NCBI RefSeq assembly: GCF_031624395.1
Contig: NZ_JAMQON010000005.1
Location: 248,001-312,000, forward strand
Reading direction: 5' to 3'
DNA: 64,000 bases
DNA from: Halomicroarcula saliterrae
GTDB lineage: Archaea > Halobacteriota > Halobacteria > Halobacteriales > Haloarculaceae
Part shown: positions 19,181 through 38,388 of the stretch, in pieces
How positions within the stretch are numbered: the stretch's first letter is position 1
How the letters are laid out: each line of letters starts with the position of its first letter
Notes under the pieces: generated by a model
What the model was told of the DNA's origin: nothing
Seen by the model: the letters and a program-made list of their open reading frames with translations, nothing else
Databases searched by the model: none
Program-made: the position numbers and the translations under genes

Positions 19181-22100
19181 TCACGGCCCGACAGACAGGC
19201 CGACCGCCGAGAACCCCAGCCCGCTCGATCTAGCACGCTGCAGGCCAAAGTATCCACGTGGCTCTGTGGTGTTTGGGTAGACGAGGCGATACGAACCGCC
19301 GATGTAGTCGGCTTCGACACTGAGGTAGTACGTGCCTGACTCTCTGGCTTCGTGGCTGATCTGTCGGTACTCGGGGTCGACCGCGTCAAGATGCGACCCG
19401 TCGGCGTCGGTCAGTGTCACTTCCAGATTGCTCTCGCCAGACGGCACGACCCTGGGATCGACCAACTCGCCCTCGCTGACGTTGAACGCGAAATAGTCCG
19501 GGTCGCTGTCAGAGACAGTGAGATTATCGTAGCTATCCCCACGAGAGACGGTCGTCGCTCTGCTTCGTCGGTCATCTCCTTCCAGACGGTCACCGGTCGT
19601 GTTCCCGTAGACGAACTCGTAGGAACCCGACCCCGCGGTCTCGACCCGCAGGTAGAAAGTACCGTTCTGCTCGACATCGTAGGTTAGCTGGTCGTGGTCG
19701 AGGTCGGCCCTGGCGACGGTCTGCCCACCGGGTCCGACCAGTTCCGCGGACGGACTGTCGATACCGTCGCCGAACGTGAACCGTGGGTCTATCAATTCGC
19801 CCTCGCTAACGTTGAACGCGAAGTAATCTGGGTCGTTCCGCTCGATAGTGAGATTGTCGTAGCTGTCCCCCGGCGAGACGACCGTGGCCCTCGTCTCTCT
19901 GTCGTCGGGCTCCAGCTGGTCACCGGTCACGTTGCCGTAGACTATGTCGTACGATGCTGATTCGTCAGTGTCGGCAGTCACGCGGATATAGTAGGTCCCC
20001 GCGGTAGCAACCTCGTAATCGAGCTCTTCATCCGCGAGGTCCACACTAGTCAGGACTGCGCCGCCCTGCCCGAGCAGCTTCGCCCGCGGCGTGTCGACAC
20101 TGTCACCGAACGAGAACCGCGGGTCGATACGTGCGGTCCTCGAATCGGCCCCGTAGCCGCCGAACTGGTACTGCGGACCGGACCAGCCACCTGAGATATA
20201 CGTGTCAGCCAGTGATGGCTGCCAGCCGTTGAGATCTCGCTTGCTAACGTTGACTTTGAAATAATCGGGGTCGCCGTCGCTGACGGTGAGGTTCTCGTAG
20301 CTGTCACCCGGCGAGACGGACGTTGCTCTCGTCGTTCTGTCGTCGGGTTCGAGCCGGTCGCCGGTCGAATTCCCGTACACCAGGTCGTAGGACGCTAACT
20401 CGTCGGTGTCGGCAGTCACTCGGAGATAGTACGTCCCGTCTCGCCGGACCTCGTAGCTAAGCTGTTCACGCGCCGGGGCCACGGTGGTGACGGCCCTGCC
20501 GGTGGGGCCGATCAGCTCCAGTCTCGCGCCGGTCGCGTCGTCGCCGAACGATAGTCGCGGGTCGAGCAGTTCACCGGCGCTGGCGGTGAACGCGAAGTAG
20601 TCCGGGTCCCCGTCGCTGACAGAGAGATTCTCGTAGCTGTCACCGAGGGAGACGGGTGTGGCTCTCGCAGTTTGGTCGTCGGGTTCGAGCCTGTCACCCG
20701 TCGTATCTCCGTACTGGACAGTGTAGTTCGACTGGTCGCTGTTGTCGACCCGCAGACGGAGATGATAGGTACCGGTCTGCTCGGCCTCGTAGTAGAGCTC
20801 ACCGTAGTCGAGGTTCGTACTGGTCACGGAGGACCCGTTCGGACCGAGCAGTTCCACCCGCGGGTCGGACGCGTCGCCATCGAACGAGAACGATGGGTCT
20901 ATGACTCCGTTCTCGTCGACAGTGACCGCGAAGGAGTCCGGGTCCCCGTCGCTGATTGTCAGGTTCGCGTAGCTGTCGCCAAGCGAGAGGTTCGTTGCGC
21001 GACTGGGCCAGTCGTCCGGTTCGAGCCGGTCGCCTGTCGAATTCCCGTAGACGAGGTCGTACGCGACCGGTTCGTCGGCGTCGATCGAGAGCCCCACGTA
21101 GTATGTTCCGGCACTGTTGACCTCGTATGCGAGCTGTTCGTAGTCGAGGTCCGCGCTGGTCATGGACGATCCGTCCGGCCCGAGCAGTTGCGCTTGCGGA
21201 TTGTCTGCATACCTGTCGAACGAGAACGACGGGTCTATCACTCCGTTCTCATCGACAGTGACCGCGAAGTAGTCCGGGTCCCCGTCGCTGACAGTGAGAT
21301 TGTCGTACCTGTCCCCGAGTGAGACGTTCGTCGCACGGGTCCGCCAGTCGTCGGGTTCGAGTCTGTCTCCGGTCGAGTTGCCGTATACCAGGTCGTACGC
21401 GACCGGGTCGTCCGCGGCGACCGAGAGCTTCACGTAGTACGTACCGTTCTGTTCGACCTCGTATTCGAGCCGTTCGTAGTTGAGGTCCACACTGGTCACA
21501 GACGACCCGTCCGAGCGAACCAGCTCTGCCGACGGATAGTCGGCCCCGTCAAGACGTATCTCGGGATCTATCAGCTCGCCCTCTGTCGCGTTGAAGGCGA
21601 AGTAGTCCGGGTCCCCGTCGCTGACGGTGAGGTTCTGGTAGCTGTCCCCGACGGAGACGTTCGTGGCGCGACTGGGCCAATCGTCCGGTTCGAGCCGGTC
21701 GCCGGACGAACTCCCGTACTCGAAGTCGTAAGAAACCAGCTCGTCGTCCTCGACCGAGAGTTCTAGATAGTACGTCCCGGCTTGGTCGACCTCGTATTCG
21801 AGCTGGTCATCGTCGAGGTTCGCGCTGGTCTCAGACGGTCCCTCCGGACCGAGCAGTTCCACCCGCGGGTCGGAAGCGTCATCGTCGAACGAGAACGAAG
21901 GGTCTATGACTTCGTTCTCCTCGACAGTGACAGCGAAGTAGTCCGGGTCCCCGTCGCTGATGGTGAGATTCTGGTAGCTGTCCCCGAAGGAGACGTTCGT
22001 CGCACGGGTCCGCCAGTCGTCGGGTTCGAGTCTGTCTCCGGTCGAGTTGCCGTATACCAGGTCGTACGCGACCGGGTCGTCCGCGGCGACCGAGAGCTTC

Positions 22101-25100
22101 ACGTAATAAGTGCCACCCTGTTCGACCTCGTAGCTGAGCGACCGGTAGTCGAGGTTCCTACTGGTCACGGACGAGCCGTCGGAGCGGACCAGCTCTGCCG
22201 ACGGGTGGTCAGCCCCGTCGAAGCGTATCTCTGGATCTATCAGCTCGCCATCGCTCGCGTTGAACGCGAAGTAGTCGGGGTCCCCGTCGCTGATAGTGAG
22301 GTTCTGGTAGCTGTCCCCGATGGAGACGTTCGTCGCCCGAGTGCGCCAGTCGTCCGGTTCGAGGCGGTCGCCGGAGGCATTTCCGTACTGGAGATCATAG
22401 AAGCCTGGCTCTTGGTTTTCGACCGAGAGCTTCACGTAGTACGTGCCGCCATGTTCGACCTCGTATTCGAGCTGGTCGTAGTTGAGGTCCACACTGGTCA
22501 CAGACGACCCGTCCGGGCGAACCAGCTCTGCCGACGGGTAGTCGGCGCCGTCGAAGCGTATCTCTGGATCTATCAGCTCGCCCCCGGTCGCGTTGAACGC
22601 GAAGTAGTCCGGATCCCCGTCGCTGATGGTGAGATTCTGGTAGCTGTCCCCGAGGGAGACGTTCGTGGCTCGGGTCCGCCAGTCGTCCGGTTCGAGGCGG
22701 TCGCCCGTCGAGTTACCGTAAAGCAAGTCATAGGTAGTCGTCCCCGCACCGTAGGTCCACAGCCGGAGGTAGTACGTGGTGTTCTGTTCGGCTTCGTAGC
22801 TGAGCTGCTCGTAGTCGAGATTCGCACTCGAGACAGACGAGCCGTCCCCGGTCGTCAGTTCGGCGCGGAGGCCATCGTCGGCCTCGATCTCGGGGTCTAT
22901 CAGCTCGCCCTTGCTGACATCGAAGGCGAAGTAGTCTGAGTCCCAGTCGCTGACGGTGAGGTTCTCGTAGCTATCTCCAAGCGATACGGGCGTAGCTCTC
23001 GTCCTGTGGTCGTTGGGTTCAAGACGATCACCGGTGGCGTTCCCGTAGCGCAGGTCGTAGGAACTCGTCTCGTCCACGTTTAATTGCGAGATCTGCAGGT
23101 AGTAGGTGCCGTTTTGCGGAGCCTGGTAGCTGAGCTGCTCGTGGTTGGGACTTGCACTGGCCACCGGCGTACCGTCCTCGGTCAGCAGTTCGGCGCGTAT
23201 ATCTGTGGCGCTCTGATGGGGCGTGATTTCGGGATCGATCAGGTCGCCCTTCTCGACATCGAAGGCGAAGTAGTCGTCGTCCGCCCACCCGACAGTGAGG
23301 TTCTCGTAGCTATCGCCGAACGAGACGGTCGTGGCACGGCTCCCCCGGTCGTCGGGTTCGAGTCGGTCGCCAGTCGTGTTCCCGTACTGGAAGTCGTAGA
23401 GGGCCCCGTTACCGTCACCGCTGGCGACTCGTAGGTAGTACGACCCGGACCGACTAACCTCGTAGTCGATGGTTTCGACATCGGTATCGGACTCCGACGT
23501 TTCGACGACCGTTCCGTTGGAGCTCGTCAAGGTCGCATTGACATCAGCCATGTCGTGGTCGAAGGAGATCCGCGGGTCGATCAGGTCGCCCTCGCTTACG
23601 TTAAACACGAAGTAGTCCTGCTCCATCCGGCCGAGGACGAGCCCGGCGTAGCTGTCGGTGACGGCGACATCGGTGGCGTTCCGACGCCGGTCGTTGGGTT
23701 CGAGCGGGTCGGACACCGGCTCGCTCACGTTCACCTGTAAATCGTACTCGGTAGACATGTACCTATCCGAGTTGACGACGGCGATACGATGGGTTCCGGA
23801 CCTGTTCGTAAGTGCTCGGATCTGTTCGGTGCCTCCATACGTGGTCGTTTGCGCCATTTCCGTGCCGTTTGGCCCGTACAATAGTATCTGTCCCTCACTG
23901 GCGTAGTTGTCGAACGAGACGTTCAGGCTGAGTATGGTGCTATCGCTGGCAGTCACCGCGAAGCGATCGGTGTCTCCCTCGGTGAGAGTCAGATTCCGGC
24001 GGCGGGCGTCAGCCGGTACTCGCGTCGCGTTTCCGGGGTTATCGTTGGGCTCCAGTCGGTCCCGACCCGGGCTGGTCCGCGTCTCGATATCGTAGTTGGC
24101 ACCGGGTCCGTCGGCTGCGGACACGCGAACGTAGTACGTCCCGGCGGATACAGTCTCATGAGTGAGCTGTTCCTGCTGTCCTGCCGAGGACGCGGAGGCG
24201 ACGACGGCACCGTTCGGTGCTATCAGTTCCGGGTCCAGGTCCGTCCCACGCTGTGCTGTCGTGATGCTCGCCTCGAACGTCGCGGCCGCACGCAACTCGA
24301 TCGCGAAATAGTCCTCGTCATCCCCTCCGACCGAGAGATGATTGTACTCGTCGTCCGGTTGCATCGGTGTTGCCGTTGCGGTCCCGTCGTTCGATTCGAA
24401 CCTGTCGACTGGTTCGACGACGTCGGCAGAGAGGTTGTAGTGGTGCCACCGGTCGCTGGCAGTGAACACGCGAACGTAGTAGGTACCCGACTGCTGTGCT
24501 TCGTGCTCAACGTGTTCGTCAGTTGCGGCCGAATCCGCGCGGGTCAGGACAGTGCCGTTCGGAGCCAGCAACTCCATGTCGACATCGCCGGCGCGCTGGT
24601 CGAGGTCCGCGCTGGAGGTGATAACCTCGCTAGAATCGGCCTCGACAGCAAAGTAGTCCTCGTCATCGGGCCGAAGCGTCGTGCTCGTCACTTCCTCGCC
24701 GGCCTGCAACTGTGTCGCGGTCGATCGAGCGTCGTTGTCCTCGAACTCGTCGGGTTCGGTCACGTCAACGCTGACGTTGTAGCCGACCAGTTCTTCCAGG
24801 TCTGTCGCCATCCGGATGTAGTACGCGCCGGACTGATCAGCAGTGTGTCTGAGCCGGTCACGACCAGACAGGGCGGTGTGGACGACCGATCCGTCCGGTG
24901 CGATGAGATCAACATCGAGACCAGTCTCGCCATCGATTCTGGTCGTCACCTGCTCACCTTGGTCCAGAGTAATCTCGAAGTAGTCAGGGTTGTCGGCTGC
25001 TGTGACGTTCAGCCTCTCGTAGCTGTCACCCGCAGTGAGTTCGGTCGCACTGTCTCGGTTGTCGTCTGGTTCGAAGCGACCCTCGTGCTCGGTAATAGCT

Positions 25101-28100
25101 ACGTCGAACTCGTATGGTATCGACGTGAACACACTGGAACTGACGTTGATATAGTAGGTTCCGGATCGTTGGACCTGGTGACTGATATGGTCATCGGAGC
25201 TGCCGGACTTCGTGGCGACCACCGTGCCGTTATCGTCAACCAGTTTGACGGTGAGGTTCTGTTGCTCGTATCTGGTGTTCGTCTGCGGAGCGATAGTGTC
25301 TCCGGCGTCGGCCTGAACCGCGTAGTAGTCGACATCTCTCCCGGGGAGCGTGAGCCCTTCATAATCGGAGCCAGGCTGGACTGCTGATGCACTGGCTCGC
25401 CTGTCGTTGGATTCGAACCCGTCCGGTGCTCGTTGTATGACGCTTGGGACGTCGACCATGTACTCCATACTGTACCCAACAGTTGCACCGTTGCTCCCAT
25501 CGGGTGAGCCGTTCTCCAGACGCAGGTAGTAGGACCCAGTTTGGTCCGCCTCGTATCGGATTGAGCGCAACTCTCTGGGCGAGTCCCACCGTTTCAGCGT
25601 CGTGCCACTCGAATCGAGCAGCTGCGCATCCATGTCGGTATTGCTCTGTGACTGCGAGATGGACACGCTAATCGTCTCGCCCTCGAAAGCGTGGAGTTCG
25701 TAGTAATCCGCTTCATCGGGGTGGAGCTCCAGGCGCTCGTAGCTGCGGCTACTGGAGACGAGGGCCGTTGCAGTGCTGCGTTTGTCGTTCGGTTCCCCTC
25801 TGCCGTCGTTTTTGAAAGCGGCCCCGGTCGGATTCAGCGCGATGTCGTACTGTGTTTCTCCTGACGGCGGTCCATCAACTTTTATTTTGTATCGGCCCGT
25901 TTTGCCGACTTGGATCTGACGGTCGATCCGCTCTTCAGAGGTCGACAAAACCGTAAAACCGTCTGGGTCGACCAGCGACACTTCTTTTAGCTCCCCGTTG
26001 CGCGGTACGACCTCGGTCGAGAGGTTCCGGCCGGCCCGAAGCGGTATGACGTAGGTGTGAGTGGCTTGCGCCCCTATCGACCGACCTTCGATCTTGTCGC
26101 CGGTCAACGGGACCTCCGTTGCTTGGTTCCCACTATCGGCGTCCGCGGACCCATCGCCGTTGGAATCCGACCCTCGGATGTCGATATCGAGGTTGTACCG
26201 CTCCGGGACATCAGCCAGTGTGTAATCCTTATCTACACCGATGCGGTAGAGTCCCCCCTCGTCGGCGGTGTACGAAATCGTGTTGAAGCGTGTGCGTTTG
26301 TTCGTGCCTCCGGGGCCGTTTAGCGTGAGCGAAGCAGCAACATCGTCTTCGCCGTCTGGGGCATCGACGCTCGCTGTCAGGGTTTCCCCTGGTCGGACGT
26401 CGACCAGATAGTAGTCATAGGCATAGGTCCCGACAGACACGTCCTCCCAGTACCCCTGGGAAACGAGCCGCGCTTGATCTTCCTCATCGTTTGGCTCCAG
26501 CCGGTCGCTGGGAGACGACACCTCAGTGTGTAGCTCGTAGGGTAGCGGTGGATCGCGCGCGATTCCATCGATTTTGATGTAGTACGTCCCCGACATACCC
26601 GCTTCGTGGCTAAATTTCGCGGTACCGCCGCGGTTCTCGTCCCACTCGACGGATTTTCCGCTCGGATCGAGCAATCTCGCGCCCAAGGCTCCCTCGCCCC
26701 AAGTCTCGCGACGCACGGTGATCTCCTCCCCGGCACGCAGTTCGACTGCGAAGTAGTCCTCGTCGTCATCACTGAGGTTCAGCTGCTGGTAGGTCTCGCC
26801 GGGAACTATCTCTCTAGAATTTGATATTTTATCGTTGGGTTCGAAGGGCTCTGTGCCGGGGGGGACCGGATTACGCAGTCCGACCCGGAAATCGTACGAC
26901 CCGGTTGCCCCCTGAGCCTGAACTCGCAGATAGTACGTCCCCGACCGTCTGGCCTTGTGGCGAATCCCCTCACCGCCGGAGGTCAACCTGCCGTGTTTGA
27001 TTTTGGATTTATCGGGTCCAAACAGATCCAGCTCCAGATCTGAGTCCCCGGTGTCGAAGTCAATCTCGGACGTAATCGTCTCACTGTGGTTTACATCGAT
27101 TGCGAAGTAATCCACGTCCTCGACACCGTTTTTATCTTCGATCGCGAGTCCCTGGTAGTTGTCGCCCGGCTCGACCGGTGTCGCATCCTCCGGTCTGTCG
27201 TTTATTTCGAGCGAATCGCCGGATGACATCTTCTCGAGACTGAGGTCGTATTTCGTGCTCGCATTATACACCCAAATGTAGTGTGTCTGGTCAAATGCGG
27301 CAGTGAACTCGATGTCTTTCGGACTGGTGGTCCCCTGGAAGCCTTTGTACAACGAGGGACCATCCACTATCAGCCTCGGATCGCCAGACACGTCGTCAAA
27401 CGATGCCGTGACCGTGTATTCCACCCCTTTTTTTGCATTGAATGCGTAATAATCTTCGAATTCAGTGTTGTCGTTGCCGTCGTACAGCGTGAGTCCGTCG
27501 AAGTCGGCGCCGCTAGAGATCTCGGTCGCGTTCCTCCTTCGATCGTTCGGCTCGAATCTGTCTCCCGAGGAGGTCCCGTCCTCGTCTTCGGCGGCGTCGT
27601 ACTTCATCTTCAGGTCGTAGTCAGCAGTACCACCGAACGGGGAGTAGACCTGAACATAGTATTCACCTGATTCCGGAACCTCGTACGTGAGCGAGTCGCT
27701 GTTACCGTCGGTCGTCGCCGACTCAACCGTCCCTCCCGACTCGTTGAGCAGGGTCATGTCGAGTTCCCCGTCACCGCCGGTAATCGACAGTTCCGGTTTG
27801 AGCGTCGCTCCGGACCGTGCGGTGACGCTGAAGTAGTCTACGTCATCGTCGATGGTCCCACTCACCTGGTCGCCGGGCGAGACTGCCGTCGCGTCGTACC
27901 GGTTGTCGGCGTGTCGGTCGCCGGAGCCACCGATATCTATAGAGAGGTTGTACGTCGATACGTCTGTCCCCACGTTGTCTACGTTGATGTAATAGGTGCC
28001 CCCACTTGGGGTCTCGTGGACGACTTTCTCGCCGTCGATCACCGGTTCCTCGCGACCGACAGGCCACCCATCCGAATCCTCCAGATCGAGCGACAGGGAA

Positions 28101-28680
28101 GTTTCGCTCGCATCGAACGAGATCTCTACTTCGATGTTCGTCGCCGACGAAACCTGCAGTTTGTACCAATCCTGGTCTTTGACTTCCAGATTCTCGTACG
28201 AGCCGGCGGCGATATCGCTCGCGTTCCCCCGAGCGTCGTTGTCCTCAAACTGGTCGCTGGCATCTTGCTCCTCACTGCCGTCGTCACTCGTCTCGTCGAC
28301 CGAGAGGTCGTACGTTACGGCCGACTCGCTGTTCGTGGTCAGTTTAAGATAGTACGACCCGTCCTCGTCGGCTGTGTATGTGATCGTTTCTGAATCCCTG
28401 ATCGAATCGACAGTGGTTATCGTCCCGCTAGGACCGATCAGTTCCGCGTCCAGGGCGGGATCAGTCGCGCTCTTCGATCGGGTGGAGTCAGATTGCTGGA
28501 GCGATGTCTTGGCGCTTGCGAGCGAGATCGTCGTCGATAGTTCCCCGCCACTGTCGTCCTCCAGCTCGTAGAAGTCCGTGTCTTCGTCCCGGATCTTGAG
28601 CCCCTGGACGTTCTCTCCCGGTTCCACGGCATCGGCGTCGTCCTTGTCGTCGTTTGGCTCGGCGATGTTGTCGATGTAAG
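19181..28680 (-). repeat. 27 tandem PPC-type coding repeats
   Basis: Tandem coding repeats of about 345 bases each within the giant protease gene. The twelve units nearest the 3' end of the gene (low coordinates) share long near-identical blocks encoding GDRLEPDD and GDSY-x-NLT-x-SDGDPDYFA, whereas the units next to the protease domain keep only the core pattern. This points to recent amplification or gene conversion at the distal end. Confidence 0.85.
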
Positions 28681-30037
28681 GCCTGCCGGTAATCGAGTAG
28701 TAGGCCCGAACCCGACCGGAGCCGTACTTGTCGTCTCGCCCCTGGTCGCCCAGATCGAGTGCAGTGTCTGTCAGTTGGTCCCGAACGTCAGCATCGGAAA
28801 GGTCACGGTTCCCATCGGCGAGGTCACTGGCCATAATAAGGGCAGCCGTCCCCGCGACGTGAGGGGACGCCATCGACGTTCCCGACCCTGTCCGGTATAT
28901 CGCGTTCCCGAACATATGCTCGTTTGGGACGGTCGAGCGGATGTTCACGCCCGGTGCAGCGATCTCGACGGCCGGTCCTTCGGCGCTTTTGCTCCACCTT
29001 TCGTCATCTCTGTCAGTCGCTGCGACGCCCATCACCTCACTGTAGCGGGCGGGATACATCACTTCCTTGGGGCTGGAGGACCCGCCGCCGCTATTGCCCA
29101 CTGGAGCCACGAGTAGAGCGTGATTCGCGGCGTACTCGATGGCATCCTCCAGTTTTGGTAAGTCCTTCGAGCTGTTTATTCCCATCAGGATGATCTCGGG
29201 GTCGTCATCGGTGTTTAGGGTGTCGTCGGGGCCTCGGGCGGCCATTCGAATGCCGGTGTTGATCCAGTCCGCATCCGTCTGTAGCTTGTTCGTCTGGCGA
29301 CTCTTGTTGAGGACCTGTACCGAGTACAGGTCGACGTTCGGAGCGACGCCGACGACACCCTTGCTGTTGTTTTCAGCGGCGACGATACCCGCCAGATGAG
29401 TCCCATGGTATTTGACATCGTCGGCCGCCTGGATACCCTCTCGAACGGTTCCGTTGGTGGTATCGACCCCCCATTCGAGATTGTTTACCAGGTCGGGATG
29501 GTCGGCGTCGATACCCGTATCGACGACCGCAACGTCGACCTCGGACTCGGCCGAGTCGGGAATATCGCTTGCAGCCTCCGTCGCGTTGATACGAGCCACG
29601 CCATCCGGAACCATCTGACCCCTCGCTTTGGACGCTACCGTTCCGGTTGCAGTTCCGTTCTCCCCGGATTTGGAGCGGTTTTCGTCCGCTTCCGACGAGG
29701 CCGGGTCGTCATTGGACTCTTGCTGCTGTGCACCGGTCTCAGCGCTTCGGTTCGCTGCAGTACCGTTGCTTCGTGACGAGTTCGTCTCATTGCCCGCACT
29801 TTCTTCAGACTCGTTCGGCGTCGCGGTGTCGTTCTGTGTCGACGGTTCAGTCGGCGTCGTGGTCGACTCGTTGCCAGCGCCAGCTACCGGCCCAGTGACC
29901 GATATCGCACCGACAATCGGCGCCGTAGTCAACATGACCGCGACGGCAAGCACTGCGATGAGTCGTCCCGGTACCGATTGTCCACTGTTCCACCCTGACG
30001 TAGACCGCTGCCGATGGGAGCCCCGCACAGATGTCAC
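19181..30037 (-). CDS. Giant secreted subtilisin-like protease with 27 PPC-type repeats
   Basis: About 3,618 residues. The N-terminus has a Sec-like hydrophobic signal (residues about 25-50), then a Ser/Thr/Asn-rich acidic linker to about 140 and an S8 peptidase domain with Asp173 (VVDTG), His211 (HGTH), the oxyanion Asn in VGNSGG, and Ser388 (GTSMASPHVAG). From about residue 465 to the end there are 27 tandem units of roughly 115 residues, each opening with a D-x-L/F-E-x-N/D-D pattern, then GDSY-x-N-L and DPDYFA, and ending with TYYL/Y-D-L-like strands: PPC-type beta domains. Units 16-27 are close copies; units 1-15 diverge. Unit 25 has an extra insertion of about 30 residues. No C-terminal membrane anchor or PGF-type signal was seen, so it is probably released or held non-covalently. 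The frame runs to a TTG at 30049; the GTG at 30037 suits the promoter better. Confidence 0.9.
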   Translation of the reverse strand: MTSVRGSHRQRSTSGWNSGQSVPGRLIAVLAVAVMLTTAPIVGAISVTGPVAGAGNESTTTPTEPSTQNDTATPNESEESAGNETNSSRSNGTAANRSAETGAQQQESNDDPASSEADENRSKSGENGTATGTVASKARGQMVPDGVARINATEAASDIPDSAESEVDVAVVDTGIDADHPDLVNNLEWGVDTTNGTVREGIQAADDVKYHGTHLAGIVAAENNSKGVVGVAPNVDLYSVQVLNKSRQTNKLQTDADWINTGIRMAARGPDDTLNTDDDPEIILMGINSSKDLPKLEDAIEYAANHALLVAPVGNSGGGSSSPKEVMYPARYSEVMGVAATDRDDERWSKSAEGPAVEIAAPGVNIRSTVPNEHMFGNAIYRTGSGTSMASPHVAGTAALIMASDLADGNRDLSDADVRDQLTDTALDLGDQGRDDKYGSGRVRAYYSITGRPYIDNIAEPNDDKDDADAVEPGENVQGLKIRDEDTDFYELEDDSGGELSTTISLASAKTSLQQSDSTRSKSATDPALDAELIGPSGTITTVDSIRDSETITYTADEDGSYYLKLTTNSESAVTYDLSVDETSDDGSEEQDASDQFEDNDARGNASDIAAGSYENLEVKDQDWYKLQVSSATNIEVEISFDASETSLSLDLEDSDGWPVGREEPVIDGEKVVHETPSGGTYYINVDNVGTDVSTYNLSIDIGGSGDRHADNRYDATAVSPGDQVSGTIDDDVDYFSVTARSGATLKPELSITGGDGELDMTLLNESGGTVESATTDGNSDSLTYEVPESGEYYVQVYSPFGGTADYDLKMKYDAAEDEDGTSSGDRFEPNDRRRNATEISSGADFDGLTLYDGNDNTEFEDYYAFNAKKGVEYTVTASFDDVSGDPRLIVDGPSLYKGFQGTTSPKDIEFTAAFDQTHYIWVYNASTKYDLSLEKMSSGDSLEINDRPEDATPVEPGDNYQGLAIEDKNGVEDVDYFAIDVNHSETITSEIDFDTGDSDLELDLFGPDKSKIKHGRLTSGGEGIRHKARRSGTYYLRVQAQGATGSYDFRVGLRNPVPPGTEPFEPNDKISNSREIVPGETYQQLNLSDDDEDYFAVELRAGEEITVRRETWGEGALGARLLDPSGKSVEWDENRGGTAKFSHEAGMSGTYYIKIDGIARDPPLPYELHTEVSSPSDRLEPNDEEDQARLVSQGYWEDVSVGTYAYDYYLVDVRPGETLTASVDAPDGEDDVAASLTLNGPGGTNKRTRFNTISYTADEGGLYRIGVDKDYTLADVPERYNLDIDIRGSDSNGDGSADADSGNQATEVPLTGDKIEGRSIGAQATHTYVIPLRAGRNLSTEVVPRNGELKEVSLVDPDGFTVLSTSEERIDRQIQVGKTGRYKIKVDGPPSGETQYDIALNPTGAAFKNDGRGEPNDKRSTATALVSSSRSYERLELHPDEADYYELHAFEGETISVSISQSQSNTDMDAQLLDSSGTTLKRWDSPRELRSIRYEADQTGSYYLRLENGSPDGSNGATVGYSMEYMVDVPSVIQRAPDGFESNDRRASASAVQPGSDYEGLTLPGRDVDYYAVQADAGDTIAPQTNTRYEQQNLTVKLVDDNGTVVATKSGSSDDHISHQVQRSGTYYINVSSSVFTSIPYEFDVAITEHEGRFEPDDNRDSATELTAGDSYERLNVTAADNPDYFEITLDQGEQVTTRIDGETGLDVDLIAPDGSVVHTALSGRDRLRHTADQSGAYYIRMATDLEELVGYNVSVDVTEPDEFEDNDARSTATQLQAGEEVTSTTLRPDDEDYFAVEADSSEVITSSADLDQRAGDVDMELLAPNGTVLTRADSAATDEHVEHEAQQSGTYYVRVFTASDRWHHYNLSADVVEPVDRFESNDGTATATPMQPDDEYNHLSVGGDDEDYFAIELRAAATFEASITTAQRGTDLDPELIAPNGAVVASASSAGQQEQLTHETVSAGTYYVRVSAADGPGANYDIETRTSPGRDRLEPNDNPGNATRVPADARRRNLTLTEGDTDRFAVTASDSTILSLNVSFDNYASEGQILLYGPNGTEMAQTTTYGGTEQIRALTNRSGTHRIAVVNSDRYMSTEYDLQVNVSEPVSDPLEPNDRRRNATDVAVTDSYAGLVLGRMEQDYFVFNVSEGDLIDPRISFDHDMADVNATLTSSNGTVVETSESDTDVETIDYEVSRSGSYYLRVASGDGNGALYDFQYGNTTGDRLEPDDRGSRATTVSFGDSYENLTVGWADDDYFAFDVEKGDLIDPEITPHQSATDIRAELLTEDGTPVASASPNHEQLSYQAPQNGTYYLQISQLNVDETSSYDLRYGNATGDRLEPNDHRTRATPVSLGDSYENLTVSDWDSDYFAFDVSKGELIDPEIEADDGLRAELTTGDGSSVSSANLDYEQLSYEAEQNTTYYLRLWTYGAGTTTYDLLYGNSTGDRLEPDDWRTRATNVSLGDSYQNLTISDGDPDYFAFNATGGELIDPEIRFDGADYPSAELVRPDGSSVTSVDLNYDQLEYEVEHGGTYYVKLSVENQEPGFYDLQYGNASGDRLEPDDWRTRATNVSIGDSYQNLTISDGDPDYFAFNASDGELIDPEIRFDGADHPSAELVRSDGSSVTSRNLDYRSLSYEVEQGGTYYVKLSVAADDPVAYDLVYGNSTGDRLEPDDWRTRATNVSFGDSYQNLTISDGDPDYFAVTVEENEVIDPSFSFDDDASDPRVELLGPEGPSETSANLDDDQLEYEVDQAGTYYLELSVEDDELVSYDFEYGSSSGDRLEPDDWPSRATNVSVGDSYQNLTVSDGDPDYFAFNATEGELIDPEIRLDGADYPSAELVRSDGSSVTSVDLNYERLEYEVEQNGTYYVKLSVAADDPVAYDLVYGNSTGDRLEPDDWRTRATNVSLGDRYDNLTVSDGDPDYFAVTVDENGVIDPSFSFDRYADNPQAQLLGPDGSSMTSADLDYEQLAYEVNSAGTYYVGLSIDADEPVAYDLVYGNSTGDRLEPDDWPSRATNLSLGDSYANLTISDGDPDSFAVTVDENGVIDPSFSFDGDASDPRVELLGPNGSSVTSTNLDYGELYYEAEQTGTYHLRLRVDNSDQSNYTVQYGDTTGDRLEPDDQTARATPVSLGDSYENLSVSDGDPDYFAFTASAGELLDPRLSFGDDATGARLELIGPTGRAVTTVAPAREQLSYEVRRDGTYYLRVTADTDELASYDLVYGNSTGDRLEPDDRTTRATSVSPGDSYENLTVSDGDPDYFKVNVSKRDLNGWQPSLADTYISGGWSGPQYQFGGYGADSRTARIDPRFSFGDSVDTPRAKLLGQGGAVLTSVDLADEELDYEVATAGTYYIRVTADTDESASYDIVYGNVTGDQLEPDDRETRATVVSPGDSYDNLTIERNDPDYFAFNVSEGELIDPRFTFGDGIDSPSAELVGPGGQTVARADLDHDQLTYDVEQNGTFYLRVETAGSGSYEFVYGNTTGDRLEGDDRRSRATTVSRGDSYDNLTVSDSDPDYFAFNVSEGELVDPRVVPSGESNLEVTLTDADGSHLDAVDPEYRQISHEARESGTYYLSVEADYIGGSYRLVYPNTTEPRGYFGLQRARSSGLGFSAVGLSVGP

Positions 30038-30065
30038 CTGATGGGACAATCTTCAAGTAGTTTGT

Positions 30066-30075
30066 ACTTAATAAT
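30066..30075 (-). promoter_or_regulatory. Probable promoter of giant protease gene
   Basis: On the reverse strand ATTATTAAGT lies about 33 bases before the GTG at 30037 and only about 21 before the TTG at 30049. The spacing favours the GTG. Confidence 0.4.
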
Positions 30076-30597
30076 TTTCTAGATTTATATTATATATTGA
30101 TAAATAAAGGCCTCCACAGTGGTATCAGTACCTGACGAGAGGTTCTACTGAATCACCCGACACCCCCAGATTCTGCGATGAGTGCGGACCTGCGGATATC
30201 TCGAGGGGCAGGGACACACAGTGATTCCTGGTGGTTCAATCTGAATCAGCCGAAATCAGAACGTTCAGAGATAATATTTTCTATATTATGTTTCTGTTGG
30301 ACTTTTTGACTACCAGAGTCTCCACATCCAACAGCGAGAGATGCATACAGAGCATAAAATTGGATAAATCACATAGCGCTATATAGAATGTGCTGCGTCC
30401 CAGAGAGCACAGTTTCGGAGAATGATCCAGTTTCGGGTCTAATCTCTGTCGGTTCGGGAGCCATATCCCGACGAAGCGCTCGGTTACTGCCCATCTTGAA
30501 CGAGATAATCGAATGCACATGGGATATTGCGCGGATTTTGTTGCTATTACAGAGCGTTGCCACTCCTAAGCGGCGAACCCGGTGGGGAATCGGTCGC
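30076..30597. other. AT-richer intergenic region
   Basis: About 520 bases between the protease promoter and the transposase remnant, clearly AT-richer than the surroundings. Short reading frames exist but none has halophile-like acidic composition. It may include one end of the decayed insertion element, but no terminal inverted repeat could be matched. Confidence 0.5.
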
Positions 30598-32201
30598 TCA
30601 GTCAGGCGGAATCAATGCCGAAACGATCATCTCGACACATTCTCCCGCAGTCAAGACGGGGGCATAATCCATCTCGCCATCGACGCCCGCTTTCAGCAGA
30701 AAGTCCGTGAGCCGCCAGATATTGTACAGCAGCACCGCGAACACGACGTAAAACAAGCGGACGCGGTAATCCTTCGAGACGTCTTCGCGAGAAAATCACC
30801 CTTGATGGACTTGTACTCGTTCTCGATTTGCCACCGGCGACTGTAGCGCCGACAGAACGTCTCGGCCTCATCCGGTCCGACGCGGAGATTCGTCGCGAAG
30901 ACAGTTGTTCCCTCACCGCTCGTCGACGGTACGTACAGGAATCGAAGTAGATGCGAACCCGACTCAACGTGGACAGATGCCGATTCGACGGCGACCTCCG
31001 GGTCGTCCTCGTCCATCTGCTTGATCACCTCACGTTCGGAACTCGTGATCCGCTTGGGAATGAGGTAGTTGACAGCGAGATTCGAGAGTGTCTGAAACAC
31101 CCGCATCGAATCGAATTCGCGATCGCACAGCACCGTCTCGATGGGGACGTGTTCTTTCGCCCGCTGGACGAGGCGACGGACGACACGGTGGATCTGATTC
31201 GACGGGTTCTCGTCCCACGATGAACTCTCACGGACAGGCTCGACAGCCAAGACAAGCGGGATGTTCTGGCCAATGATCGAGAGGGTTGCAAACTTGAATG
31301 CTCTACCCTCGCCGTCTTTCGTGCCGCTGACCATCGGCATTTCTTCCACATCGACGTAGTACGGGACAGTCGTGATATCGATCGCCGCCGTGACTGGCCG
31401 CCGGAACGATGCCTCGGACTCAAGTATCGAGAGAAGCCGGTCCGTCGCCTCGTCAAATCCATCTACGAGTGCCGCAGGCTCAAACTGTTTGACTGCTCTC
31501 AGGTGAGTATCGCCGTGTGGTCCGTTTTCTGACCCACGTCGAAACTGGAACCGGGTCGCCCCTTGCGGGGTTCCACAGCCGACCATTCCCATGAACGTCT
31601 GGAGCTCGAAAAACTGCGTGTCCTCGTAGGAGGCATTTGCTGCACGGCCTGAATCGAAGCCCTCGAAGCCGTTGGCGCGGGCGAGGCGTATCGTCCGGTG
31701 TATCTGCTCGTCTGTGAAGTCCTTGCCACACTTGGTCTCGTCCGTCTCAGAGAACTCACCGGAATCTTTCCGTGGTGTGATAGTCTCTTCTTTGGGGCGG
31801 ACTGCCGGGACAGATGGGCCATAGTCGTGGATCTCTTTGACGACGTAGTGGGCTGCGGTGGTGATGAACTCACGACTCGCATCGTCGAATCGCTTTCTCC
31901 AGGTACGCGAAAGAACCGATTCATCCGGGATGCGGTCGAGGCCGAATGCGTCCGCAAGTTCTGGCTACTGCCCGAGTGTTCGGTAGCTCTTGCCCGTGAT
32001 CTCCCGATAGAGAAACAAGCGAACCATCCCGTGGAACGAATAGGGAGCTGGATGCCAGGCGGGATACCGATCGTCGAGTGTGTCAAATGGGCCGTCCAGT
32101 GATGCAACGGCACGAGTGAGCGACGACCCATCGCGGAGGTGTTCCCGAAGGGTGATGCCAACGCTATAGGCATCGGTGAGACGGCGCTGGCGACTCGTCA
32201 T
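30598..32201 (-). pseudogene. IS4-family transposase, inactivated
   Basis: A DDE transposase of about 535 codons when reconstructed. The N-terminal part (MTSRQRRLTDAYSVGITL) runs from 32201 to an in-frame TAG at 31965-31967, after which the same frame continues with PELADAFGLDRIP. The catalytic region has AIDITTV, CDREFDS and YSRRWQIENEYKSIK, which fits the IS4 signature Y-(2)-R-(3)-E-(6)-K exactly. Near 30772-30785 one base is missing: the last 58 or so codons (KDYRVRLFYVVFAV onward) continue in another frame to a TGA at 30598-30600. The stop and frameshift indicate a dead copy. Element ends were not identified. Confidence 0.85.
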
Positions 32202-37069: not shown

Positions 37070-38317
37070 TCAGTCGTAGAGGGCGAACTCGTCGGTCAGC
37101 CGGTCCACGCGGTCGGCGACGCCCTCGACGACGTCCTCGTCGTGGGGCGCTTCGACGACCTCGTAGATGCAGTCGGCGACCTCGCGACAGGCGTCCTCGT
37201 CGAAGCCCCGCGTCGTGAGTGCGGGCGTGCCGGCGCGGATGCCCGAGGGGTTGAACGCCGAGCGGGTCTCGCCGGGGACGGTGTTGGCGTTCAGCACGAT
37301 GCCCGCCGCTTCGAGCCCCTCCTCGACGTCCTTACCGGTGGTATCGGGGTGGGACGGCCGGAGGTCGACGAGCACGAGGTGGTTGTCGGTGCCGCCCGAG
37401 ACCAGGTCGAGGCCGTGCTCCTGTAGACGGTCACCCAGCGCGACGGCGTTGTCGACGGTCTGTCGAGCATAGGCCTCGAACTCGGGTTCGAGGGCCTCCT
37501 TGAAGCCGACGGCCTTGCCGGCGACGTTGTGCATCAGGGGACCGCCCTGTGCCCCGGGGAAGACGGCCGAGTCGATGTCGTCGGCGTACTCGTCGTCGCA
37601 CATGATGATGCCGCCCCGACCGGCGCGGATCGTCTTGTGGGTCGAACCGGTGACGAAGTCCGCGACGCCGACCGGTGACTCGTGGACGCCCGCTGCCACC
37701 AGCCCGGTTATGTGAGCGATGTCGGCGAGGTGGTAGGCGCCGGCGGCGTCGGCGGCCGCCTGAATCCGCTCGAAGTCGACTTCCCGGGGGTACGCCGAGT
37801 AGCCCGAGACGACGATGTCTGGCTCGTACTGCTCGGCGTGCTTGCGAAGTCCCTCGTAGTCGACGTAGCCGGTCGCCGGGTCGACCTCGTACTGCTCGAC
37901 CTCGTACACCTGCCCGGCGAAGTTCGCCGGGTGCCCGTGCGAGAGGTGGCCGCCGTGGGTCAGGTCCAGCGAGAGTATCTTATCGCCCGGCTCCAGCATC
38001 GCCAGATAGACACCCATGTTGGCCTGTGAGCCCGAGTGGGGCTGGACGTTGACGTGGTCGGCGCCCCACAGCTCAGTGGCGCGCTCGATAGCGACACGTT
38101 CGACCGCGTCGGCGTACTCACAGCCGCCGTAGTAGCGTTCGCCAGGGTAGCCCTCGGCGTACTTGTTCGTGAGTTCGGAGCTCTGGGCCTCCATAACCGC
38201 CTCGGAGACGTGGTTCTCCGAGGCGATCATCGCCAGCGTGTCGTTCTGGCGCGCTCGCTCGCCGTCGAGTGCGTCGGCGATCGCCGGGTCGACCTCGCGG
38301 ATGCGCTCGTACCTCAT
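37070..38317 (-). CDS. glyA: Serine hydroxymethyltransferase
   Basis: A 415-residue PLP enzyme that interconverts glycine plus 5,10-methylene-THF with serine plus THF. Motifs are ASENHVS, YAEGYPGERYYGGC, the PLP lysine Lys228 in STHKTIRAGRGG, and SAFNPSGIRAGTPALTTRG. The ATG at 38317 is preceded by a TATA-like element at about -29 and a striking dyad just beyond. In the locus it would join the glycine left by sarcosine demethylation to the methylene-THF made by the oxidases, giving serine for the ammonia-lyase downstream. It also serves normal biosynthesis. Confidence 0.95.
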   Translation of the reverse strand: MRYERIREVDPAIADALDGERARQNDTLAMIASENHVSEAVMEAQSSELTNKYAEGYPGERYYGGCEYADAVERVAIERATELWGADHVNVQPHSGSQANMGVYLAMLEPGDKILSLDLTHGGHLSHGHPANFAGQVYEVEQYEVDPATGYVDYEGLRKHAEQYEPDIVVSGYSAYPREVDFERIQAAADAAGAYHLADIAHITGLVAAGVHESPVGVADFVTGSTHKTIRAGRGGIIMCDDEYADDIDSAVFPGAQGGPLMHNVAGKAVGFKEALEPEFEAYARQTVDNAVALGDRLQEHGLDLVSGGTDNHLVLVDLRPSHPDTTGKDVEEGLEAAGIVLNANTVPGETRSAFNPSGIRAGTPALTTRGFDEDACREVADCIYEVVEAPHDEDVVEGVADRVDRLTDEFALYD

Positions 38318-38341
38318 ACTCGCTAGCCCGAAGCGAAGACG

Positions 38342-38350
38342 GAATAATTT
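38342..38350 (-). promoter_or_regulatory. TATA box of glyA
   Basis: AAATTATTC on the reverse strand, centred about 29 bases before the ATG at 38317; a leaderless transcript is likely. Confidence 0.5.
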
Positions 38351-38360
38351 GGCCGTCGGC

Positions 38361-38388
38361 ACAAGATATAGATGATTCTATATGTTGT
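38361..38388. promoter_or_regulatory. 28-bp dyad, candidate operator upstream of glyA
   Basis: A near-perfect palindrome: outer arms ACAA/TTGT and inner arms ATATAGA/TCTATAT around TGAT, with 11 of 14 pairs matching. It sits immediately upstream of the glyA TATA box, where an activator or repressor dimer could act. Confidence 0.5.

Follow-up and report, generated by a model that had tools for sequence, protein, structure and literature searches.

The analysed stretch of DNA, a window of 64,000 nt from contig NZ_JAMQON010000005.1 of Halomicroarcula saliterrae to which all positions below refer, contains a single giant gene on its reverse strand at 19181..30049. This gene, here called the S8-PPC27 gene, consists of one uninterrupted frame of 3,622 codons with a TTG start; alternative GTG starts are located at 30037 and 30028. 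An earlier inspection of the letters alone (the sequence-only reading) had given 19181-30037 as its coordinates; the frame was right, but the end at 30037 is the GTG four codons inside the TTG at 30049. The mature part of the encoded protein has a calculated mass of ~388 kDa and a pI of ~4.05, and it is free of cysteine. Directly upstream, an AT-rich stretch at 30050..30110 on the same strand is the presumed promoter, as predicted from the sequence.

The left flank of the gene carries amidohydrolases, amidases and MFS and ABC transporters. In the right flank, two overlapping frames at 30693-32173 (reverse strand) encode a probably decayed DDE transposase, of which a 75% identical copy exists on contig C8, followed by an HTH_10 regulator and then by a folate/serine/betaine cluster. 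This C1 cluster at 36900-61000 comprises SHMT, MTHFR, BCCT, GCV_T/DAO fusions, FTHFS and a pterin-binding/Mur ligase fusion. It is also present on plasmids of ~300-560 kb in Haloarcula and other haloarchaea, with the best match in Haloarcula marina. The left flank gave no such plasmid match, and no relatives of the repeats were found on plasmids by tblastn. The giant gene is solitary at this junction, in DNA that looks accessory. A second SHMT of this genome sits on contig C1. For the SHMT at 37070-38362 (reverse strand), the match extends upstream through one TGA near the N-terminal end in many relatives; this stretch is probably a leader sequence ahead of the true start, because matches starting at residue 9-16 are mostly without the TGA.

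All features of the giant gene described in the following lie on the reverse strand. Hydropathy and translation place the hydrophobic core of a signal peptide at residues 28-48 (29906..29968), which reads as Sec-type and lacks a twin arginine. It is followed by a low-complexity linker of 94 residues rich in S, T, A, E and N (residues 49-142; 29624..29905), which occupies the place of the propeptide of relatives. In Pfam, no propeptide family matched the giant protein at E ≤ 1, and a comparison of the linker with the N-terminus or propeptide of L122 showed no credible similarity. L122 and L121 are the nearest relatives, and in both a propeptide is visible by eye.

At the other end, the C-terminal tail of 26 residues (19184..19261) contains neither an anchor nor a dockerin. 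Outside the signal peptide, every stretch of 19 residues averages ≤1.05 in hydropathy and no C-terminal anchor was found. Since the protein has no cysteine, it also has no lipobox; with respect to the archaeosortase/lipid-anchored class, neither a C-terminal hydrophobic anchor nor a lipobox cysteine was found. An anchor hidden by a frameshift was considered and rejected, as all three downstream frames were read and none contains one. Hydropathy, the lack of cysteine and the downstream frames agree with the sequence-only reading, which had seen no anchoring signal.

The head of the protein is a subtilase (S8) catalytic domain at residues 143-453 (28691..29623; PF00082, E = 5e-43). Its closest PDB sequence is Tk-subtilisin (E = 2.8e-41), on which the AlphaFold model superimposes with a Z of 44.6 and 1.9 Å across 293 residues. 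Judged by sequence and model, the head has the S8 fold and belongs to peptidase family S8. The catalytic triad of Asp177 (29519..29521), His215 (29405..29407) and Ser392 (28874..28876, within GTSMASPHVAG) was correctly called intact before, and the oxyanion-hole Asn319 (29093..29095) is intact as well.

The substrate-binding strand differs from that of 33 relatives compared, reading Gly290-Ile-Asn-Ser293 (29171..29182) instead of the usual Ser-Leu-Gly-Gly. Subtilisin position 125 is Ser in 33/33 relatives and Gly in the giant protein, and position 127 is Gly in 29 of the 33 and Asn here. Furthermore, Lys354 (28988..28990) corresponds to subtilisin position 189, which is aromatic in all 33. The changes at positions 125-127, which line the substrate cleft in subtilisins, suggest that the specificity of the S8 domain has probably changed, and a loss of activity is possible, too. 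Given the unusual cleft residues and the lack of a visible propeptide, proteolysis may be weak, narrow in range or absent.

An iterative HMM built from the repeats returned exactly 27 PPC domains of ~113 residues each, arranged almost end to end over residues 461-3596. They make up 86.6% of the protein and thereby confirm the 27 domains and the 87% counted initially behind the S8 domain. Pfam alone recognized 14 significant stretches (PF04151, E = 2.2e-76; 253 bits versus a curated cut-off of 25.9). PPC domains 1-14 (23717..28669) are diverged, with mostly 20-40% mutual identity, while domains 15-27 (19262..23710) form a more uniform block with ~40-86% identity. Within the latter, domains 18-23 (20696..22702) constitute the youngest amplification, in which domains 19-20 and 21-22 look as if a unit of two domains had been duplicated (87% and 81.5% DNA identity). 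The closest, recent copies show dN/dS ratios of ~0.25-0.5. From the sequence comparison, the array grew by tandem duplication and its recent copies are under purifying selection. Domain 25 alone carries an insertion of 34 Gly/aromatic-rich residues in the HMM domain map (20129..20230), a candidate for a special binding loop.

The genome is a draft of 20 contigs and the stretch 20586-22720 contains repeats up to 87% identical, as would be expected if the array had been falsely expanded during assembly or if the gene were decaying. We consider this very unlikely, because the longest exact internal DNA repeat has only 116 bp, most repeats are just 20-60% identical to each other at the protein level and purifying selection acts on the recent copies; moreover, the frame stays open over 10.9 kb. 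Within the array, the exact copy number is least secure across domains 18-23.

A model of three PPC domains (pLDDT 90.8, pTM 0.70) had its best match in a clostridial collagen-binding domain (CBD), that of ColH (3jqw; Z 14.2, 2.2 Å, 107 residues), and the repeat profile matched the tandem CBDs of ColG (E = 4e-11). According to the model, the repeats share the jelly-roll fold of the CBD structures. At the repeat start the motif E-x-N/D-D is found, with E in 25/27, N/D in 25/27 and D in all 27 repeats. It resembles the calcium-binding linker of clostridial CBDs; by this analogy, the chain is probably stiffened by calcium at the motif.

Sequons are in excess along the array, with 67 observed versus 23 expected (1,000 shuffles, maximum 37). 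This excess is inflated in domains 15-27 because the repeats share ancestry. In the diverged half, 22 sequons were counted versus 12 expected, a number reached in 2 of 1,000 shuffles. The genome encodes AglB (E = 4.3e-251), by which the PPC chain is probably N-glycosylated.

In case of E495, single PPC domains bind protein, for which residues D26, D28, Y30 and Y/W65 were found to be required by experiment (PMC3327674). The C-terminal extension (CTE) of SptA binds insoluble substrate and collagen at 3 M NaCl and boosts activity on protein (PMC3158780). Assigned by motif matching and not by alignment to the E495 sequence, the counterpart of D26 is Asp in 21 of the 27 repeats, that of D28 is Asp in 26, and that of Y30 is Phe or Tyr in all 27. 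The two tyrosines of a GTYY motif are present in 24 and 23 of the 27 repeats.

A PPC match was detected in 142 of 391 haloarchaeal genomes sampled across the class. Among the matches listed, the giant frame is the longest PPC-bearing frame, followed by frames of 2,874 aa (16 PPC domains, without S8), 2,311 aa and 2,086 aa. In the family (146 genomes, own genus included), no comparable array was found elsewhere among the matches listed. A bacterial survey covered one phylum, to which the Hyalangium genome G500 belongs (195 genomes), and 20 genomes reached by loci. Among the best matches listed, with a capped number of candidates per genome, its longest PPC frames had 2,862 and 1,709 aa; each has fewer PPC matches than the giant protein. 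At order level (392 genomes), no relative of the S8 domain exceeded 52% identity, and in the nearest S8 domains (43-52% identical) no PPC repeats were found with the repeat HMM. The 2,874-aa protein of genome G133 (locus L115, 4840-13461, forward strand) belongs to another family and has a T/S/P-rich N-terminus and blocks of PPC domains, at least 16 in all.

Halolysins are Tat substrates with an N-terminal propeptide (PMC6085418). Like the halolysins SptA, Nep, R4 and 172P1, the giant protein has the features of a secreted haloarchaeal S8 protease with a substrate-binding C-terminal jelly-roll domain; a subtilisin-like catalytic domain and a C-terminal extension are both present. In contrast to them, it lacks a Tat signal, a propeptide and cysteine, its substrate cleft is altered, and the extension consists of 27 PPC domains instead of a single CTE. 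No RR was found in its N-terminus, whereas the three halolysin-like loci L109, L110 and L113 carry this pair. With 3,622 aa it is indeed, as had been noted, far larger than the ordinary halolysin-like proteins of the class, which have 530-550 aa and one CTE. Because the twin-arginine signal and the propeptide are absent, the giant protein is not a halolysin by the features compared, though it may well work like one.

The bacterial and archaeal proteases of the Subt-PPC and Subt-PPC-PPC types combine the identical two domain families in the identical order, but with one or two PPC copies in the respective survey (PMC2605481) and 27 here. With the clostridial collagenases ColG and ColH (CBD s3), the giant protein shares the PPC fold, the E-x-N/D-D motif and tandem domains behind a protease; these enzymes, however, have an M9 catalytic domain and one or two CBDs, and collagen is an unlikely natural target of the giant protein. 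The G133 protein is likewise giant, secreted and rich in PPC domains, but has no detected S8 domain, other domains between its PPC blocks and, by eye, a dockerin-like C-terminus. Halomucin of Haloquadratum, another giant secreted haloarchaeal protein of 9,159 aa that is mucin-like by BLAST (PMC4378361), was set beside it by description and not by alignment. All parts of the giant protein are already known. What sets it apart is the copy number, the changed cleft and the loss of two halolysin-defining elements, the propeptide and the Tat signal; the last two points, cleft and lost elements, go beyond the sequence-only reading.

In the best reading, which we hold with moderate confidence, the S8-PPC27 gene encodes a secreted protease whose multivalent PPC chain keeps it attached to the target. 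The protein would be exported via the general (Sec) pathway, with the S8 domain as its working head. Behind it, the 27 PPC domains would line up like beads, each a beta-sandwich that grips protein, into a long chain stiffened by calcium at E-x-N/D-D and glycosylated by AglB. At ~4 nm per bead by our own estimate, this chain would reach a length near 100 nm. By attaching at multiple sites to matrix, or to protein that is insoluble or salted out, it would hold the protease at the target. The architecture, the PPC and subtilisin folds, the triad, the conservation of the binding residues, the sequon excess and the tandem growth of the array are taken from the sequence and the models; we infer that the protein is secreted and active, that its chain binds multivalently, is stiffened by calcium and glycosylated, and that it has the stated length. 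A role in protein or matrix degradation fits the biochemistry of PPC domains, and the long fibre suggested by the sequence-only reading is plausible.

In many proteases, PPC domains are removed during maturation (PMC3327674), and the tail of the giant protein therefore may not stay attached. It could then be an aid for export or folding that is trimmed after secretion, leaving S8 with few or no PPC domains as the working enzyme, just as M4 proteases such as MCP-02 lose their PPC domains and stable mature forms of E495 retain none or one (PMC3327674). Recent tandem growth under purifying selection is hard to square with discarded copies, and the binding residues are conserved throughout the array, which makes this possibility quite improbable.

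Alternatively, the protein could be a structural or adhesive surface fibre in which S8 is vestigial or serves only self-processing. The loss of the propeptide and the replacement of Ser125, Gly127 and the aromatic residue at position 189 point in this direction, as does an array that accounts for 87% of the protein and is still expanding. Haloarchaeal PPC arrays without a protease occur (the G133 protein of 2,874 aa with 16 PPC domains), and haloarchaea possess giant secreted non-enzymatic proteins (halomucin, PMC4378361). Nevertheless, the triad, the oxyanion Asn and GTSMASPHVAG are fully retained, which is unusual for a decayed protease, and we regard such a fibre as an unlikely, if serious, contender. 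In a more speculative and rather improbable variant, the protein would represent a new type of fibre of the archaeal surface or matrix: a rod of ~100 nm, glycosylated and stiffened by calcium, with a tethered protease at its tip that is processing and not digestive. The tip would lack a propeptide and have its cleft retuned to one target class, e.g. acidic residues facing Lys354.

Toxin-like contact killing was suggested solely by the sequence-only reading. A haloarchaeal halolysin can free an antimicrobial peptide from its precursor, but it does so as a free protease (PMC12893001). No credible toxin domain was found in Pfam and NCBIfam and no match in PADLOC; the C-terminus consists of a PPC domain plus the 26 residues, and the gene is surrounded by amidohydrolases, amidases, a transporter and the decayed transposase. 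Neither a C-terminal toxin domain nor an immunity gene, as in polymorphic or contact-dependent toxins, was found, and we consider such a function extremely improbable. Matches to Ntox23 (E = 0.054), EMP24/GOLD and Por_Secre_tail lie inside the PPC repeats and were taken as cross-matches. A role in phage defence was rejected as well, having no support in the Pfam, NCBIfam and PADLOC scans.

With a single PPC domain, protein is bound with higher affinity; in one case, from a haloarchaeon, this was at high salt. If the protein is a protease held by its chain, its 27 copies would be an extreme among natural examples of secreted enzymes that grip their substrate multivalently. The gene would also illustrate the growth of repeat arrays in archaea, and it raises the question of how a subtilase folds when it lacks the propeptide typical of the group and does not take the Tat route of halolysins. 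Smaller PPC proteins exist in the own genus: at loci L118, L132 and L134, frames of 761-1,221 aa contain 2 to 6 PPC domains preceding a presumed metalloprotease domain of the HELTH type, a domain order that is the reverse of that in the giant gene.
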